A stretch of 64,000 nucleotides of DNA from Aequorivita iocasae. Lineage in GTDB: Bacteria; Bacteroidota; Bacteroidia; Flavobacteriales; Flavobacteriaceae. This document shows positions 11,790 through 54,207 of the stretch, piece by piece. The stretch lies in the NCBI RefSeq assembly GCF_016757735.1, contig NZ_CP068439.1, positions 1,116,001 through 1,180,000 on the forward strand, given 5' to 3'. A program made the translations under genes and the position numbers. Each line of letters starts with the position of its first letter. Position 1 is the stretch's first letter. Below the pieces are notes generated by a model that was given only the letters and a program-made list of their open reading frames with translations, was not told the DNA's origin and ran no database searches.

Positions 11790-12299
11790 TTACTTTCTAT
11801 AAAATAGCTGAGTGAAGTAGCTTCGGCCTTTGGCACATTTCATTACTCCAAATCCGGTATGTGTATAATTACCTTCTATGATTGCTTTGTGCCCTGGGCT
11901 GTTTAGCCAGGCATTTACAACGGCTTCAGCAGTATCGTAGCCATAAGCTACGTTTTCCCCTACCACTTCGGCATTGTCATGATATTTAATTCCTTCTGAA
12001 CGGTACCCGAAATTGTCGTGATTTATCTGTTCTTTTTCAATCATATATTCAGTATGATCTACAGCGAATGCAGAAGCGTATTGGGAGTCCATTTTGAGCA
12101 CAGAAAGGCCTAAGGACGCACGATGATCATTTACTAAACTTAAGATTTCAGCTGACATTTGGCTGTCATTTCTTTGAGCCAAAGTTAAATCAATGTCGTA
12201 TTTAGTGGCTTCAACTTCAACAGAATCCTCTTTTGAACAAGAGGTAATCACTAGGCATAACAATGCCATTGCAAGTAGGTTGCTTTTTAGTAGGTTCAT
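11790..12299 (-). CDS. CAP (SCP/PR-1) domain lipoprotein
   Basis: 169 residues. A lipoprotein signal ends with the lipobox VITSC (C21). The CAP domain covers about residues 50-168: LVNDHRASLGLSVL, the HTEYM and INHDNFGYR histidines, ENVAYGY, then AVVNAWLNSPGHKAII and THTGFGV. The histidine and glutamate residues of the CAP cavity are present. The protein should be envelope-anchored. Bacterial CAP lipoproteins have no single agreed function. It is transcribed alone from its own -7 box. Confidence 0.88.
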   Translation of the reverse strand: MNLLKSNLLAMALLCLVITSCSKEDSVEVEATKYDIDLTLAQRNDSQMSAEILSLVNDHRASLGLSVLKMDSQYASAFAVDHTEYMIEKEQINHDNFGYRSEGIKYHDNAEVVGENVAYGYDTAEAVVNAWLNSPGHKAIIEGNYTHTGFGVMKCAKGRSYFTQLFYRK

Positions 12300-12337
12300 A
12301 ATTTGGGGGACACCAGATTTGGGGCTTGATGTCGATT

Positions 12338-12345: not shown

Positions 12346-12474
12346 TAAAAAAAATGATACGAAAATGCTTTTAATCGAAAAAATGTTGCACTTTATCGGA
12401 TAAAAGATATTTTTTTTAAAACAAGAGATACTTTAAAATTTTGTTGAAGTACTATAAACATTGTATTTTTACTT

Positions 12475-12502: not shown

Positions 12503-13567
12503 ATGGTAAAAAATTTAACATTTTTAATCGCTATTTTTTTGTGTTTTGGATGCAAAAACGAAGAAAAACATAGTTCAGCTGCCATACATACTTCTAAAAA
12601 TACAATAATAAATGAAGAAAACTTCGGAATCGTCATTCATGGGGGAGCCGGAACCATTCTTAAAGAAAATATGAGCGATTCCTTGGAAACAGCATATAAA
12701 GCGAAACTTAAGGAAGCTATTTCCACTGGTTATGACATCTTGAAAAACGGCGGAACTTCTTTAGAGGCCGTTACCCATACTATTAATATAATGGAAAACT
12801 CACCTTTATTCAACGCGGGAAAGGGCGCGGTCTTTACACATGATGAGTCGAATGAGCTGGATGCCTCAATAATGGATGGCGCTACCTTGAATGCTGGAGC
12901 TGTCGCAGGAGTAAAACACATTAAAAACCCAATAGATTTAGCCCGGGATGTAATGCAAAAAAGCGAACATGTAATGCTGTATGGTGCCGGTGCGGAAGCA
13001 TTTGCTCAAAGTTTGAATTATAAAATGATGGATACCTCCTATTTCTACACCCAGAACAGATATGAGTCGCTACAAAGAGTTTTGGAAAGGGAAATAGCCC
13101 AAAATGAAAACAAGATTTCTTTTGAAGATTCTTATTTAAAAAACTCAAAATTCGGGACCGTGGGTTGTGCAGCCTTGGACAAACATGGAAATCTGGCAGC
13201 AGGAACCTCAACTGGAGGAATGACAAACAAACGCTGGAACCGCATTGGCGATGCACCAATTATTGGTGCTGGAACCTATGCTAATAACGCAACATGTGCA
13301 GTTTCTTCAACGGGTTGGGGAGAATATTTTATCAGATCTGTTGTGGCCTATGATATTTCAGCTTTGATGGAATATAAAGGAATGAGTTTGCAAGATGCTG
13401 CAAGAGAAGTCATTCAGAAAAAAGTACCTGAACTTGGCGGCGATGGCGGTATTGTTGCCATAGACAAGGACGGAAATGTGGCAATGGAATTCAACACTGC
13501 GGGAATGTATCGCGCCACTATGAATTCAAAAGGTGAGTTGATTATTAAAATCTACAAAGAAGAATAA
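12503..13567 (+). CDS. iaaA: Isoaspartyl peptidase / L-asparaginase (plant type), lipoprotein form
   Basis: 354 residues. An N-terminal lipoprotein signal (FLCFGC) precedes an Ntn-hydrolase of the isoaspartyl peptidase/asparaginase family. The N-terminal strand IHGGAGT and the auto-cleavage site FG-TVGC are both present, with T219 the expected nucleophile after self-processing into two chains; TSTGGMTNKRWNRIGDAPIIG follows as the oxyanion/substrate loop in two parts. The enzyme hydrolyses L-asparagine or isoaspartyl dipeptides. With a lipobox it should act outside the cytoplasm. I chose the ATG at 12503 because the signal peptide follows at once. The ABM gene follows with no gap. Confidence 0.9.
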   Translation: MVKNLTFLIAIFLCFGCKNEEKHSSAAIHTSKNTIINEENFGIVIHGGAGTILKENMSDSLETAYKAKLKEAISTGYDILKNGGTSLEAVTHTINIMENSPLFNAGKGAVFTHDESNELDASIMDGATLNAGAVAGVKHIKNPIDLARDVMQKSEHVMLYGAGAEAFAQSLNYKMMDTSYFYTQNRYESLQRVLEREIAQNENKISFEDSYLKNSKFGTVGCAALDKHGNLAAGTSTGGMTNKRWNRIGDAPIIGAGTYANNATCAVSSTGWGEYFIRSVVAYDISALMEYKGMSLQDAAREVIQKKVPELGGDGGIVAIDKDGNVAMEFNTAGMYRATMNSKGELIIKIYKEE

Positions 13568-40411: not shown

Positions 40412-42310
40412 ATGAGCGACGCCTTAAAACACGAATGTGGAATTGCACTGGTAAGATTGTTGAAACCCTTGGAATATTACAAGGAAAAATACGGCACGGC
40501 ATTTTACGGAGTAAATAAAATGTATCTGATGATGGAAAAGCAGCACAACCGCGGGCAGGATGGTGCTGGTTTTGCAAGCATTAAACTGGATGTAAATCCT
40601 GGGGAGCGGTACATAAGCCGCGTACGTTCCAATGCCGCGCAACCCATTCAGGATATTTTTGCACAAATTAACGAACGCATAAATCTTGAATTCAAAAGCC
40701 ATCCCGAATACAGAGAAGATGTTGCCGCACAAAAAAAGCACATTCCATATATAGGTGAATTGTTTCTTGGCCACGTTCGCTATGGCACCTTCGGAATAAA
40801 CAGTGTTGAAAACGTCCACCCTTTTCTACGTCAAAACAATTGGATGCACCGAAATTTAATAATTGCGGGTAATTTTAATATGACCAATACCAACGAGCTT
40901 TTTGATAATCTCATAAAGCTCGGCATGCACCCCAAGGAAAAAGCCGATACCGTTACGGTAATGGAAAAAATAGGCCACTTTTTGGACGATGCGGTTCGAA
41001 AACTCTACAAAAAGGCAAAGGCAAAAGGAATGACTAAACAAGAGGCCTCTCCCTATATTGCCGAAAACCTTAACGTCGCAAAAATTCTTCGGAAATCTGC
41101 CGCCAATTGGGATGGCGGATATGCTATGGCCGGTCTTTTGGGCCATGGCGATTCTTTTGTGCTTCGCGATCCGGCAGGAATTCGGCCTGCATATTTTTAT
41201 CAAGACGATGAAGTGATTGTGGTTGCTTCGGAAAGGCCCGCAATCCAAACAGTTTTCAATGTTCCCTTTGAAGAGGTGAAAGAATTGGAGCCTGGCAACG
41301 CAATTATTATAAAAAAGGACGGAAGCATGAAACTTTCTGAAATACTTGCGCCATTGGAACGCAGATCCTGCTCCTTTGAACGTATTTATTTTTCCCGCGG
41401 AAGCGATGCCGAAATTTATCAAGAGCGAAAAATGCTCGGAAAATTGATAATGCCGAAAATTTTGGAGGCCATAGATTTTGATACTGAAAATTCAGTGTTC
41501 TCTTTTATACCGAATACTGCCGAAACTTCTTTTTACGGAATGCTGGAAGCTGCACAGGACGAACTGAACAAACAGAAAAATGAGGCAATTTTGAATGAAA
41601 AGGAGAAATTGACCCCAGAAAGGCTTCAAGAAATTCAAGCACACAAAATACGTACAGAAAAGATTGCCATAAAAGATGTAAAACTCAGAACTTTTATAAC
41701 TGACGATAGCAGCCGGGACGATTTGGTTGCGCATGTCTATGATGTTACTTATGGTGTTGTTAAAACAGATGATAACCTCGTAATTATTGACGACAGTATT
41801 GTTCGTGGAACCACCCTGAAGAAAAGTATTTTAAAAATGCTGGATAGGCTTCGCCCAAAACAAATTGTCGTGGTTTCTTCTGCCCCGCAAATTCGTTATC
41901 CGGATTGCTATGGTATCGATATGGCGCGCTTGGAGCATCTGGTCGCTTTTCAGGCAGCCTTGGCACTTCACAAAGATCGTGGAACGTATGATGTTGTAGA
42001 AGAAATCTATCACAAATGTAAGGAGCAAGTTGCAATGGAAGATGCGTCAGTAATCAATCACGTGAAAAAACTTTATGCGCCATTTACAGACGAGGAAATT
42101 TCAGATAAAATTGCAGAGATAATAAGCGATGAAGATATAAAAGCAAAAGTAAAACTTATCTTTCAATCTGTTGATGATTTACATAAAGCATGCCCTAAAA
42201 ATCTTGGCGATTGGTATTTTACTGGCAATTATCCTACGGCTGGTGGAAACCGGGTTGTGAACCGAGCCTACATCAACTTTTATGAAGGCAATCCAGAAAG
42301 AGCGTATTAA
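40412..42310 (+). CDS. Amidophosphoribosyltransferase-like protein, long form
   Basis: 632 residues, well over the 470-510 of typical PurF. An N-terminal class II glutaminase domain starts after an eight-residue leader, with the expected nucleophile C9 in HECGIALVRLL. HNRGQDGAGFA and GHVRYGTFG are further glutaminase motifs. The phosphoribosyltransferase domain has the PRPP loop VIIDDSIVRGTTL (about residues 457-469). Extra sequence sits between the domains (about 375-435) and after the PRPP loop. The reaction by homology is PRPP plus glutamine to phosphoribosylamine, the first step of purine synthesis; whether this long form is the main enzyme or a paralogue cannot be told here. Confidence 0.85.
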   Translation: MSDALKHECGIALVRLLKPLEYYKEKYGTAFYGVNKMYLMMEKQHNRGQDGAGFASIKLDVNPGERYISRVRSNAAQPIQDIFAQINERINLEFKSHPEYREDVAAQKKHIPYIGELFLGHVRYGTFGINSVENVHPFLRQNNWMHRNLIIAGNFNMTNTNELFDNLIKLGMHPKEKADTVTVMEKIGHFLDDAVRKLYKKAKAKGMTKQEASPYIAENLNVAKILRKSAANWDGGYAMAGLLGHGDSFVLRDPAGIRPAYFYQDDEVIVVASERPAIQTVFNVPFEEVKELEPGNAIIIKKDGSMKLSEILAPLERRSCSFERIYFSRGSDAEIYQERKMLGKLIMPKILEAIDFDTENSVFSFIPNTAETSFYGMLEAAQDELNKQKNEAILNEKEKLTPERLQEIQAHKIRTEKIAIKDVKLRTFITDDSSRDDLVAHVYDVTYGVVKTDDNLVIIDDSIVRGTTLKKSILKMLDRLRPKQIVVVSSAPQIRYPDCYGIDMARLEHLVAFQAALALHKDRGTYDVVEEIYHKCKEQVAMEDASVINHVKKLYAPFTDEEISDKIAEIISDEDIKAKVKLIFQSVDDLHKACPKNLGDWYFTGNYPTAGGNRVVNRAYINFYEGNPERAY

Positions 42311-42408
42311 GATTCTAAAATTTTAACACAGCGTTTACCGTTTATCGGAAACCCGCTCCACTTAATCGAAATTGTTGATTAACACTGTTTTACTGCTCAA
42401 ACTTAAAT
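42311..42408. other. Start of a 649-bp gene-free region
   Basis: The gap between the PurF-like gene and sod (42311-42959) holds no credible ORF. This first part is featureless apart from ordinary AT-rich sequence. Two RNA-like elements follow, separated by about 240 bp (42497-42738) in which I see nothing further, and the gap ends with the sod terminator. Confidence 0.7.
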
Positions 42409-42416
42409 TATATTTG
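42409..42416 (+). promoter_or_regulatory. -7 box TATATTTG of RNA element copy 1
   Basis: A perfect TANNTTTG box. It sits 4 bp before the TACCAT of the element, the same distance as in copy 2. Confidence 0.65.
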
Positions 42417-42418
42417 AG

Positions 42419-42495
42419 CTTACCATAAGGCGTAAGTAGGTTAGGTCTATGGTAAGATTTGGGGCAAAATAGGCAGACTCTCGTCTGCCTATTTT
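42419..42495 (+). ncRNA. Candidate small structured RNA, copy 1
   Basis: About 77 nt. A 9-bp stem pairs CTTACCATA (42419-42427) with TATGGTAAG (42448-42456) around a 20-nt loop holding TAAGTAGGTTA. The block ATTTGGGGCAAAA follows, then a 13-bp terminator hairpin at 42466-42495 (AAAATAGGCAGAC, loop TCTC, GTCTGCCTATTTT). A second copy at 42749 keeps the loop core, the GGGGC block, the stem and the -7 box, while the terminator stems differ in sequence. The small ATG frame in it (MVRFGAK) is not kept in copy 2, so an RNA rather than peptide product is likely. I do not recognise the class with certainty. Confidence 0.72.
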
Positions 42496-42738
42496 CATGG
42501 CCTGACCGAAGTGTATGATAAGACCTAACAGTTTGTGATCCACTTCCTATTTCTCTTTGTAAAAGATTGCCTCATCCATCTCTTAAATATTTGTTGAAAA
42601 TAACACATTAGCAATCGCTTAGGAATGTTAAATTTCAGTGTTAAATGCATTTTACTGGCAGAAAAACATTAAAATATGTTTTTCAACGAAAAAATTGGCA
42701 ATTCATCTAAAAGCATAATTTTGAATGCTTTATTGGCA

Positions 42739-42746
42739 TATATTTG
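42739..42746 (+). promoter_or_regulatory. -7 box TATATTTG of RNA element copy 2
   Basis: Identical in sequence and relative position to the box of copy 1. TTTG at 42720-42723 could be a -33 element, although the 15-bp spacing is short. Confidence 0.65.
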
Positions 42747-42748
42747 AA

Positions 42749-42825
42749 CATACCATTAGCATAAGTAGGTTAAGTTCATGGTAGATTTGGGGCAAAAAAA
42801 GGTAAACGCTAGTTTACCTTTTTTT
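42749..42825 (+). ncRNA. Candidate small structured RNA, copy 2
   Basis: About 77 nt, aligned with copy 1 along its 5' 50 nt with only a few substitutions and single-base gaps. The stem is TACCAT (42751-42756) with ATGGTA (42778-42783); the loop core TAAGTAGGTTA and the block ATTTGGGGCAAAA are identical to copy 1. The terminator at 42794-42825 has a 14-bp stem (AAAAAAAGGTAAAC, loop GCTA, GTTTACCTTTTTTT) unrelated in sequence to that of copy 1. The ATG in the stem opens a different reading frame from copy 1. Confidence 0.72.
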
Positions 42826-42905
42826 ATGTTTCAAATTTTTTTTAAGTGGCAAATATTTCAGCAGTTACTTTCAAGTTATCAACCCTCCATTTTTTTAAAC
42901 AAAAA

Positions 42906-42934
42906 AATCCGCAATCATTTAGACTGCGGATTCT
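42906..42934 (-). terminator. Terminator of sod
   Basis: On the minus strand AATCCGCA and TGCGGATT pair around an 11-nt loop, followed by a run of Ts. It lies 26 bp downstream of the sod stop codon. Confidence 0.8.
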
Positions 42935-42959
42935 TAATTTAAATTGTCTAATTTAAAAT

Positions 42960-43568
42960 TTACTTGTTTTTGGCATAATTAGCAGAAACTTCTTCCCAAT
43001 TAATCACATTCCAAAATGCACCAACGTAGTCAGGACGCTTGTTTTGGTATTTCAAATAGTAAGCATGTTCCCAAACGTCCAATCCTAAAATTGGAGTTCC
43101 GCCGCAACCTACTTTTGGCATCAATGGATTATCTTGGTTTGGGGTTGAGCAAACGTCTACTTTTCCACCTTTGTGTACGCAAAGCCAAGCCCAACCAGAG
43201 CCAAACTGCGTTTTAGCAGCGGTAGAAAATTTTTCTTTAAAATCCTCAAAACTTCCAAAGGCACTATTAATAGCCTCTGCAAGTTCACCCGAAGGTTTTC
43301 CGCCGCCATTTGGAGACATTACTTTCCAAAAAAGGCTGTGGTTATAAAATCCGCCACCATTATTACGGACGGCTTTATTTTCCATATCAAGGTTGGTCAG
43401 AATATTTTCAATGGTTTTTCCTTCCATGTCGGTGCCTTTTATAGCATCGTTCAATTTATCGGTGTACCCTTGGTGGTGTTTGTCGTGGTGTATTTCCATC
43501 GTTCTGGCATCTATGTGCGGTTCAAGCGCATCAAATGCATACGGTAATTTCGGTAATTCGAAAGACAT
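42960..43568 (-). CDS. Superoxide dismutase, Mn/Fe family
   Basis: 202 residues. The metal ligands are seen in [11 protein letters not shown] (about H27), NHSLFW (about H77), and [13 protein letters not shown] (aspartate and histidine near 165-169). It converts superoxide to oxygen and peroxide. Whether it uses Mn, Fe or either is not decidable by eye. The gene is monocistronic with its own promoter and terminator, next to the RNA-element region. Confidence 0.95.
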
Positions 43569-53270: not shown

Positions 53271-53345
<75 letters not shown>

Positions 53346-53412: not shown

Positions 53413-54207
53413 TTATTCCTGTACCGGTAAGACCAACAAAGGTTTGCTCGTGTAGAACTCCTTTTTATGGATTTCGTTCTTTTCCCAAAGTTTTTTGAAA
53501 AAACCACGCTTCCTTCTAACTACACAAAGCATATCTGGGCTAAATTGTTGGAAATATTCAATTACAGCTTGAAAGGTAGTAGCGGCTTCAACCTGGGTAT
53601 ATGAATTTTGTAAAGCCATTAAATTATGGGTTACATTTTTCATATCTTCCGTAGTTTCGGCCGTTTCAACATGAAGTACGTTTACCTCAGTTTTAAAACT
53701 TTGCTTAAACACTCTAACGGCTTCCAACAATTCATCGTGCTCAAAAGTTCCATTTTTAAATGCCATCAACATGGTTTTGGGAGGTTGAAACTTCGCTCCT
53801 TCCGGCACTACGAGTATAGGAATATTGGTCTGCTTTAAAAGCTTTCCAGAGGTTTTCCCAAGATATACCTCTTCCTTTATGGAATTACTGCGTGGGGCCA
53901 GCACCATCAAATCAATTGGCACTTGTTTGCCAATGCGGTTTATACCTTCCACAACCTCCCCTTTGATGGGGTGCGCAATCACCTGCACTCCTTGGCGGTC
54001 CACTTGTGAAAGCACTTCATCCAAACGATTTTCAGATTCTTCCTTTAATATGGTATTTACTTTTGAAAGTCCACCAACTTTTGAAAGTTCCTGAAATACA
54101 GAAACCACATACACATTTGCGTTTATTGATTTGGCCAAATCTATGGCATATTGTAAATTACTGATTGCGTTTGCTGAAGACCCTACGGGCACCAAAATAT
54201 TTTTCAT
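53413..54207 (-). CDS. Universal stress protein (tandem Usp, UspA family)
   Basis: 264 residues, long enough for two Usp domains. The first (about 1-140) begins MKNILVPVGSSANAISNLQ and ends with the LGKTSGKLLKQTNIPILVVPEG strand-helix, close to the G-x2-G-x9-GS ATP-binding pattern although GKTSG replaces the usual GS. The second (about 145-264) is degenerate at the nucleotide motifs. Usp proteins accumulate under growth arrest and stress; the effect is not defined. It has its own promoter. Confidence 0.85.
   Translation of the reverse strand: MKNILVPVGSSANAISNLQYAIDLAKSINANVYVVSVFQELSKVGGLSKVNTILKEESENRLDEVLSQVDRQGVQVIAHPIKGEVVEGINRIGKQVPIDLMVLAPRSNSIKEEVYLGKTSGKLLKQTNIPILVVPEGAKFQPPKTMLMAFKNGTFEHDELLEAVRVFKQSFKTEVNVLHVETAETTEDMKNVTHNLMALQNSYTQVEAATTFQAVIEYFQQFSPDMLCVVRRKRGFFKKLWEKNEIHKKEFYTSKPLLVLPVQE

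Follow-up and report, generated by a model that had tools for sequence, protein, structure and literature searches.

Between a purF-like gene and a superoxide dismutase (sod) gene, the genome of Aequorivita iocasae carries two units that are, with good probability, genes of a conserved multicopy trans-acting small RNA (sRNA) under activator control, whose two seeds would address the mRNA starts of CAP-domain lipoproteins and probably block their translation. Judged by genome comparison, such units form an RNA family spread over the Flavobacteriaceae, with one to several copies in most sampled members; from it we infer that the RNA is transcribed, that it pairs with its target in the cell and represses it, and that an activator is involved. 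Flavobacteriaceae play a major part in polymer degradation, both marine and in soil, and, to our knowledge, their post-transcriptional control has been little studied. An RNA found across the family, for which a pair of seeds can be proposed, a target family named and an operator put forward as a candidate, makes the proposal directly testable, and provides a case of a near-fixed RNA whose target-site arrangement varies between groups, with the same seeds found on two scaffolds.

The window analysed here is a stretch of 64,000 nucleotides (Table 1). The preliminary description had reported two related promoter-stem-terminator units in the purF-sod gap, which our analysis bore out: the box, the TACCAT/ATGGTA stem, the loop core and the block ATTTGGGGCAAAA are common to both. 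Each unit follows the same plan, namely TATATTTG, four bases, the TACCAT/ATGGTA hairpin, a short GATTTGGGGC-containing linker and a terminator. The box lies exactly 4 nt 5' of TACCAT in both units (TACCAT at 42421 and 42751), and the ATGGTA stem arm is found at 42449-42454 (unit 1) and 42778-42783 (unit 2). As the flavobacterial -7 box is placed at -12 to -5 in one study (PMC9723704), the RNA would start at the first hairpin base and measure 75-80 nt. The folds of the units beat 200 of 200 dinucleotide shuffles, with z of -6.0 and -4.5. Folding also recovered the terminator stems of 13 and 14 bp given at the outset; the terminators had been called unrelated in sequence, which is wrong, as they can be aligned under the common pattern AGGnAnAC...GTnTnCCT. 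The loop 11-mer is weak by itself, with at least two window matches at one mismatch in 15 of 100 shuffles, and occurs twice in the A. iocasae genome versus seven times for its reversed form.

Table 1. Features of the array, of its predicted target and of the paired upstream repeats, in window coordinates.
Feature	Position	Strand	Remarks
purF-like gene, conserved upstream neighbour	40412..42310	+	TIGR01134 match below its cut-off
Unit 1 paired upstream direct repeats	42337..42371	+	42337-42350 and 42358-42371, spacing 21; matrix scan
-7 promoter box TATATTTG, unit 1	42409..42416	+	Box position kept in 246/249 dereplicated units
sRNA unit 1	42421..42495	+	5' hairpin 42421-42454, loop seed TAAGTAGGTTA 42433-42443; start base inferred from box
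Unit 1 linker seed AGATTTGGGGC	42455..42465	+	Predicted pairing with CAP 5'UTR
Unit 1 terminator, 13 bp stem	42466..42495	+	Fold prediction
Unit 2 paired upstream direct repeats	42678..42711	+	42678-42691 and 42698-42711, spacing 20; matrix scan
-7 promoter box TATATTTG, unit 2	42739..42746	+	Sequence
sRNA unit 2	42751..42825	+	Hairpin 42751-42783, loop seed 42762-42772, linker GATTTGGGGC 42784-42793, terminator 42794-42825
Superoxide dismutase gene, conserved downstream neighbour	42960..43568	-	Opposite strand to array
Predicted target, CAP-domain lipoprotein gene	11793..12299	-	PF00188, E 1.6e-19
Predicted target site 1, CAP 5'UTR: GCCCCAAATCT	12315..12325	-	Complements linker seed; in predicted 5'UTR hairpin loop
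Predicted target site 2: CCCCCAAAT	12301..12309	-	Complements linker seed
Predicted target site 3: AACCTACT directly after ATG	12289..12296	-	Complements loop seed
Predicted target site 4: AACCTACTT after ATG	12273..12281	-	Complements loop seed
Third same-type paired repeat	12367..12401	+	Between CAP gene and divergent lipoprotein gene starting near 12503

Unit 1, used as query, matched 237 of 299 sampled Flavobacteriaceae genomes (E 0.01), so that the flavobacterial homologues for which a search had been advised do exist; a strict whole-hairpin pattern occurs in 86 of the 299 and its reversed form in none. Named carriers among the matches listed include Maribacter, Zobellia, Winogradskyella, Aquimarina, Flavobacterium and Aequorivita aquimaris, the units of the latter being identical to those of another genome of the same genus. 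Over 395 genomes of the class, a covariance model gave strong matches only in Flavobacteriaceae (in 10 of the 14 genomes of that family named in the output), and its four matches outside the family, at E 0.004-0.008, are at chance level. Three short-pattern records labelled as other groups (L079, L082 and L117) were rejected as units, being without the linker, and a chance match (L163) was left out of the unit alignment. A TAnnTT box lies 12-15 nt 5' of the stem CCAT in 246 of the 249 dereplicated units, and a terminator-like stem followed by a T run was present in 200 of the 202 units checked; on these counts the reading originally favoured, a pair of small RNA genes each of about 77 nt, remains the best one.

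Rfam at gathering thresholds returned nothing but a tRNA over the whole window, which holds a tRNA gene at 53271-53344 on the minus strand. The scan thus gave no family match for Flavo-1 or any other known class, a possibility raised in the preliminary description: Flavo-1 had no gathering match and, with the threshold relaxed to E 10, was absent from the 25 matches in 42000-43200. No description of the array was found in search listings of the open PMC literature, and this family of ~77-nt RNA genes is apparently undescribed.

The position of the array is largely conserved. Unit-bearing named loci number 109; of those extending far enough to be scored, 90 of 100 have purF directly upstream in the same orientation and 78 of 94 have sod downstream on the opposite strand; both flanks are present at 75 named loci and neither at four. 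The 75 two-flank loci carry one copy (23 loci), two (33), three (13), four (5) or five (1), these counts being lower bounds under a strict matching rule, as a looser pattern gives six copies in Zobellia uliginosa (L073). The median copy spacing is 220 bp. At the end of the Salegentibacter flavus locus (L074), an off-site copy, possibly brought there by a mobile element, adjoins a recombinase-like frame, as read from the protein letters. At several loci (L004, L012, L030, L032, L040, L052, L057 and L097), unit terminators are followed by a repeat element (CCAAATC..ACGGGGTGGCGAG, in places a variant of it), and in some relatives (e.g. L004 and L030) the second half of the terminator is duplicated beyond it. 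CCAAATC 3' of the terminators was considered as a part of the RNA and rejected: it follows 14 of 291 units versus one for the reversed form, and belongs to the repeat element of these relatives.

Within the units, the apical loop CAUAAGUAGGU and the linker AUUUGGGGC are nearly invariant across 34 diverse units, a sameness partly imposed by the search words. With no pattern imposed at the search, 25 of 26 displayed covariance-model matches keep AGTAGGTTA or AGTAGGTTAG plus ATTTGGGG (one of the 26 was not displayed under the display rule), and the bases 5' of the loop are variable in one genus among these model-found matches. Covariation in the array hairpin, proposed earlier as a check, amounts to one pair changed on both sides and is otherwise slight because the stem itself is conserved and barely varies. 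Among the matches listed, the reverse complement of both blocks occurs at 29 places besides the units, the reversed control giving 22 over all 249 genomes; these 29 places comprise ten loci of a second RNA class, eleven gene starts (one of them a 41-codon frame) and eight positions elsewhere. The second class (class B), whose ten loci were fetched, consists of ACATAAGTAGG or a near variant, a different hairpin, AAATTTGGGGC and a terminator. Its loci were found by eight bases of each seed, the sameness of which is therefore by construction, whereas its spacer hairpin covaries, with two-sided changes in 5 of 24 pairs and 14 cells versus 5.1 in shuffles, a value reached by 0 of 500. The occurrence of both blocks on a different, covarying hairpin suggests two pairing seeds, a proposal that is well supported; on our reading, selection acts to maintain these two blocks. 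The GGGGC block had been put forward as a possible antisense seed, which the target complementarity detailed below upholds; a second seed in the hairpin loop, going beyond that proposal, is likewise supported by these comparisons.

In the mechanism that we propose, the RNA would start at the hairpin and expose the apical loop and the linker as seeds, both of which would pair with the 5' end of CAP lipoprotein mRNAs, often near CCAAAUCUA-aauuu-ACCUACUUAUG, covering the start codon. Because the sites lie at the start codon, this pairing would probably stop CAP translation. The four sites predicted in the window CAP mRNA give duplex energies of -10.4 to -20.2 kcal/mol. In near CAP orthologues, a complement of at least 8 nt is found in 13 of 13 and of at least 10 nt in 11 of 13, and the reversed and sense controls give 0; shuffled RNAs on the same 13 average 4.1, 1.4 and 0.4 at 8, 9 and 10 nt, with single maxima of 12, 8 and 7. 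This set excludes L409 and L412, whose start was not parsed or mis-assigned, and L407 was counted as distant. Eleven distant homologues score 6, 4 and 4 at the same three lengths versus 1, 0 and 0 for the reversed control. A further 79 CAP homologues (80 were fetched of 106 listed CAP rows without a locus, and L548, at a contig end, was left out) show a perfect complement around the start in 57, 42 and 20 cases at 8, 9 and 10 nt, compared with 3, 1 and 0 for reversed, 7, 2 and 0 for sense and 7, 1 and 0 for gene-interior controls, and with means of 23.1, 7.4 and 2.3 (maxima 30, 14 and 6) for 40 shuffled RNAs, all of these complementarity tests treating as independent CAP homologues that share ancestry.

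The sites also track the RNA. A complement of at least 9 nt is present in 64 of 101 CAP genes of RNA-bearing genomes versus 0 of 7 in three RNA-lacking genomes (p 0.0014; L414, a short locus, left out), while 20 of the 101 fall short of 8 nt. A search of 164 genomes for ACCTACTTATGAA, a word that leaves out the RNAs themselves, gave 97 matches versus 36 for the reversed word; gene starts are in any case favoured by a word containing ATG. Of the 91 matches in the first 149 genomes, 8 fall on CAP starts, where random gene starts would give about 0.03, assuming 3100 genes per genome and with the three weakest of 136 listed CAP rows dropped. The arrangement of sites differs by group, from a leader hairpin plus codons 2-4 to CCAAATCTAaatttACCTACTTATG or a doubled ACCTACTTA, a variety that speaks against all of them having simply inherited a single leader. 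In the CAP 5'UTR hairpin, covariation was limited to one two-sided pair change, no better than shuffles, in an alignment with one row misaligned by a base. Taken as predictions from sequence, CAP mRNAs are well supported as targets.

Other candidates were surveyed as well. General targeting of start codons showed no excess of complements of at least 9 nt in two genomes (10 of 356 versus a shuffle mean of 14.1 in G000, 6 of 305 versus 10.6 in G032), and the absence of an excess at average genes implies that targets are few. Single 7-mers were mixed: CCAAATC occurred 6 times against 2.1 expected in G000 and 3 times against 1.4 in G032, most others being near expectation. SusC/TonB-receptor starts, tried as main targets, did better than shuffled seeds (loop and whole core), but many starts were mis-assigned and no conclusion was drawn. 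The pattern GCCCCAAATN{2,32}ATGAAA gave 102 matches in 164 genomes versus 52 reversed; five of the 102 are CAP gene starts and a sixth (L445) reads like one, yet the linker alone is a weak predictor because most of the 30 loci fetched are without a long frame. Thirty fetched ACCTACTTATGAA starts included several secreted proteins or lipoproteins, some recurring 22-42-codon frames and one LytTR response regulator, others being without a long frame; we regard them as leads. The regulator (L484:1509-2207, Pfam) has a start overlapping ACCTACTTATGAA, the loop-seed complement. Short hydrophobic frames (22-42 codons) whose starts complement a seed are found repeatedly, at L465, L466, L468, L429, L376, L483 and L487; a small-peptide target was not borne out in the genus of the window, 11 genomes giving no match in G000 and one weak match, with a stop, in G302.

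Pairing data of this kind are compatible with either sign of regulation: the RNA might instead stabilise or activate the CAP mRNA, or the CAP mRNA might act as a sponge that titrates the RNA. The four sites in the window CAP 5'UTR and the two ACCTACTTA copies of some homologues (e.g. L558 and L530) would suit a sponge. We nevertheless hold this opposite logic to be unlikely, since the sites overlap or adjoin the start codon in many homologues, which is the usual place for a translation block, and since the window leader is predicted to fold with its ATG free, with no inhibitory structure for an activating RNA to open. That the RNA mainly binds a protein, either an RRM protein such as RbpB or another, would account for the near invariance of the whole hairpin, including its A.A mismatch and loop, and would make the CAP complementarity secondary; Bacteroides FopS RNAs do bind RbpB, according to the FopS report (PMC11697453). 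Class B has the seed blocks on a replaced scaffold, not easily allowed by a structured protein site, and target sites track RNA presence, which together make a mainly protein-binding role quite improbable.

The units could also be viewed as distant members of the FopS/GibS family of Bacteroides thetaiotaomicron (RF04319), which, as reported (PMC11697453), is similarly multicopy, belongs to the same phylum and pairs near the start codons of envelope-protein mRNAs, where both RNAs are predicted to act. The 3' arm and linker resemble the FopS consensus through a short common stretch, UUCAUGGUA-AGAUUU, a partial match to FopS R1, but unit 2 scores 22.8 bits (E 0.82), far below the gathering value of 56, none of 20 relatives passes the cut-off, and seven control genomes besides Bacteroides, e.g. 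E. coli, also match weakly. The architecture differs as well: FopS/GibS RNAs, reported as 14 paralogues, consist of a single-stranded 5' part with the seed and a terminator, whereas the present units have a 5' hairpin preceding linker and terminator, carry two seeds, form a tandem array at a single locus and have the R1-like stretch in a stem. Among 395 class genomes, the covariance model of the units found no intermediates, and a class-wide search for UUCAUGGUA..AGAUUU gave FopS-like copies and scattered matches, with no hairpin unit in 30 loci; several of the non-FopS matches lie antisense to gene starts. Membership was hence rejected and even distant kinship is extremely improbable; FopS is similar to the units in logic and not a relative by the tests run. 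By analogy, the nearest system in working appears to be LhrC of Listeria monocytogenes, which is reported (PMC4132741) to be a multicopy sRNA with redundant sites on a surface protein mRNA whose translation it impedes, and whose copies need a two-component system. LhrC belongs to a different phylum and differs in sequence, its sites being CU-rich and the unit seeds G-rich. Conserved flavobacterial sRNAs are known from Flavobacterium psychrophilum, including Rfp18 and other Rfp RNAs; the published description (PMC9723704) has Rfp18 pairing through a third stem-loop, with predicted metalloprotease targets, whereas the units have two hairpins, a comparison made by description. The array family may include one of the Rfp RNAs.

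Returning to the sRNA reading, its expression would be timed by a putative activator binding paired ~14-bp direct repeats (20-21 bp apart) 5' of the units and beside the target gene. The aligned upstream regions of the units show no visible -33 box; counted back from the end of the box, the starts of two direct repeats, GcatTTtAtCtAAa, lie at ~49 and ~69 nt, spaced by 20 bp in 133 cases and by 21 bp in 22, with no other spacing shown exceeding 7. In 464 kb of the genome, made up of the window and 20 stretches picked without regard to repeats, same-strand pairs number three (unit 1, unit 2 and beside CAP), and 12 control spacings give none; a second genome, sampled over 400 kb, has three pairs at 20-21, all at its array, and three in total over the 12 control spacings. 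Of 15 parsed near homologues, 11 keep the CAP-side pair, 98-102 nt 5' of the start of CAP; it is absent from the distant homologues (10 rows). Being inverted relative to CAP and in line with the divergent lipoprotein gene, it may drive the latter. This divergent gene (MVKNLTFLIAIFLCFGC...; window 12503 onward, plus strand) has the paired repeats in common with the CAP gene, and comparable divergent frames occupy the same place in most near CAP homologues. The paired repeats look like the sites of a two-site activator, tentatively of the LytTR type. Judging from the repeats, an activator probably controls the array.

A broader scheme is possible, though somewhat doubtful: the pair of seeds, and not the fold, would be inherited, as in the two classes on unrelated scaffolds; the same operator would drive array and target locus in a feed-forward loop; and the sRNA may also pair with the mRNA start of a LytTR regulator in some genera (one case, L484), feeding back on a regulator of the predicted type. 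The strongest single match to the repeat matrix in the window (54012-54025, score 16.1) is unpaired.
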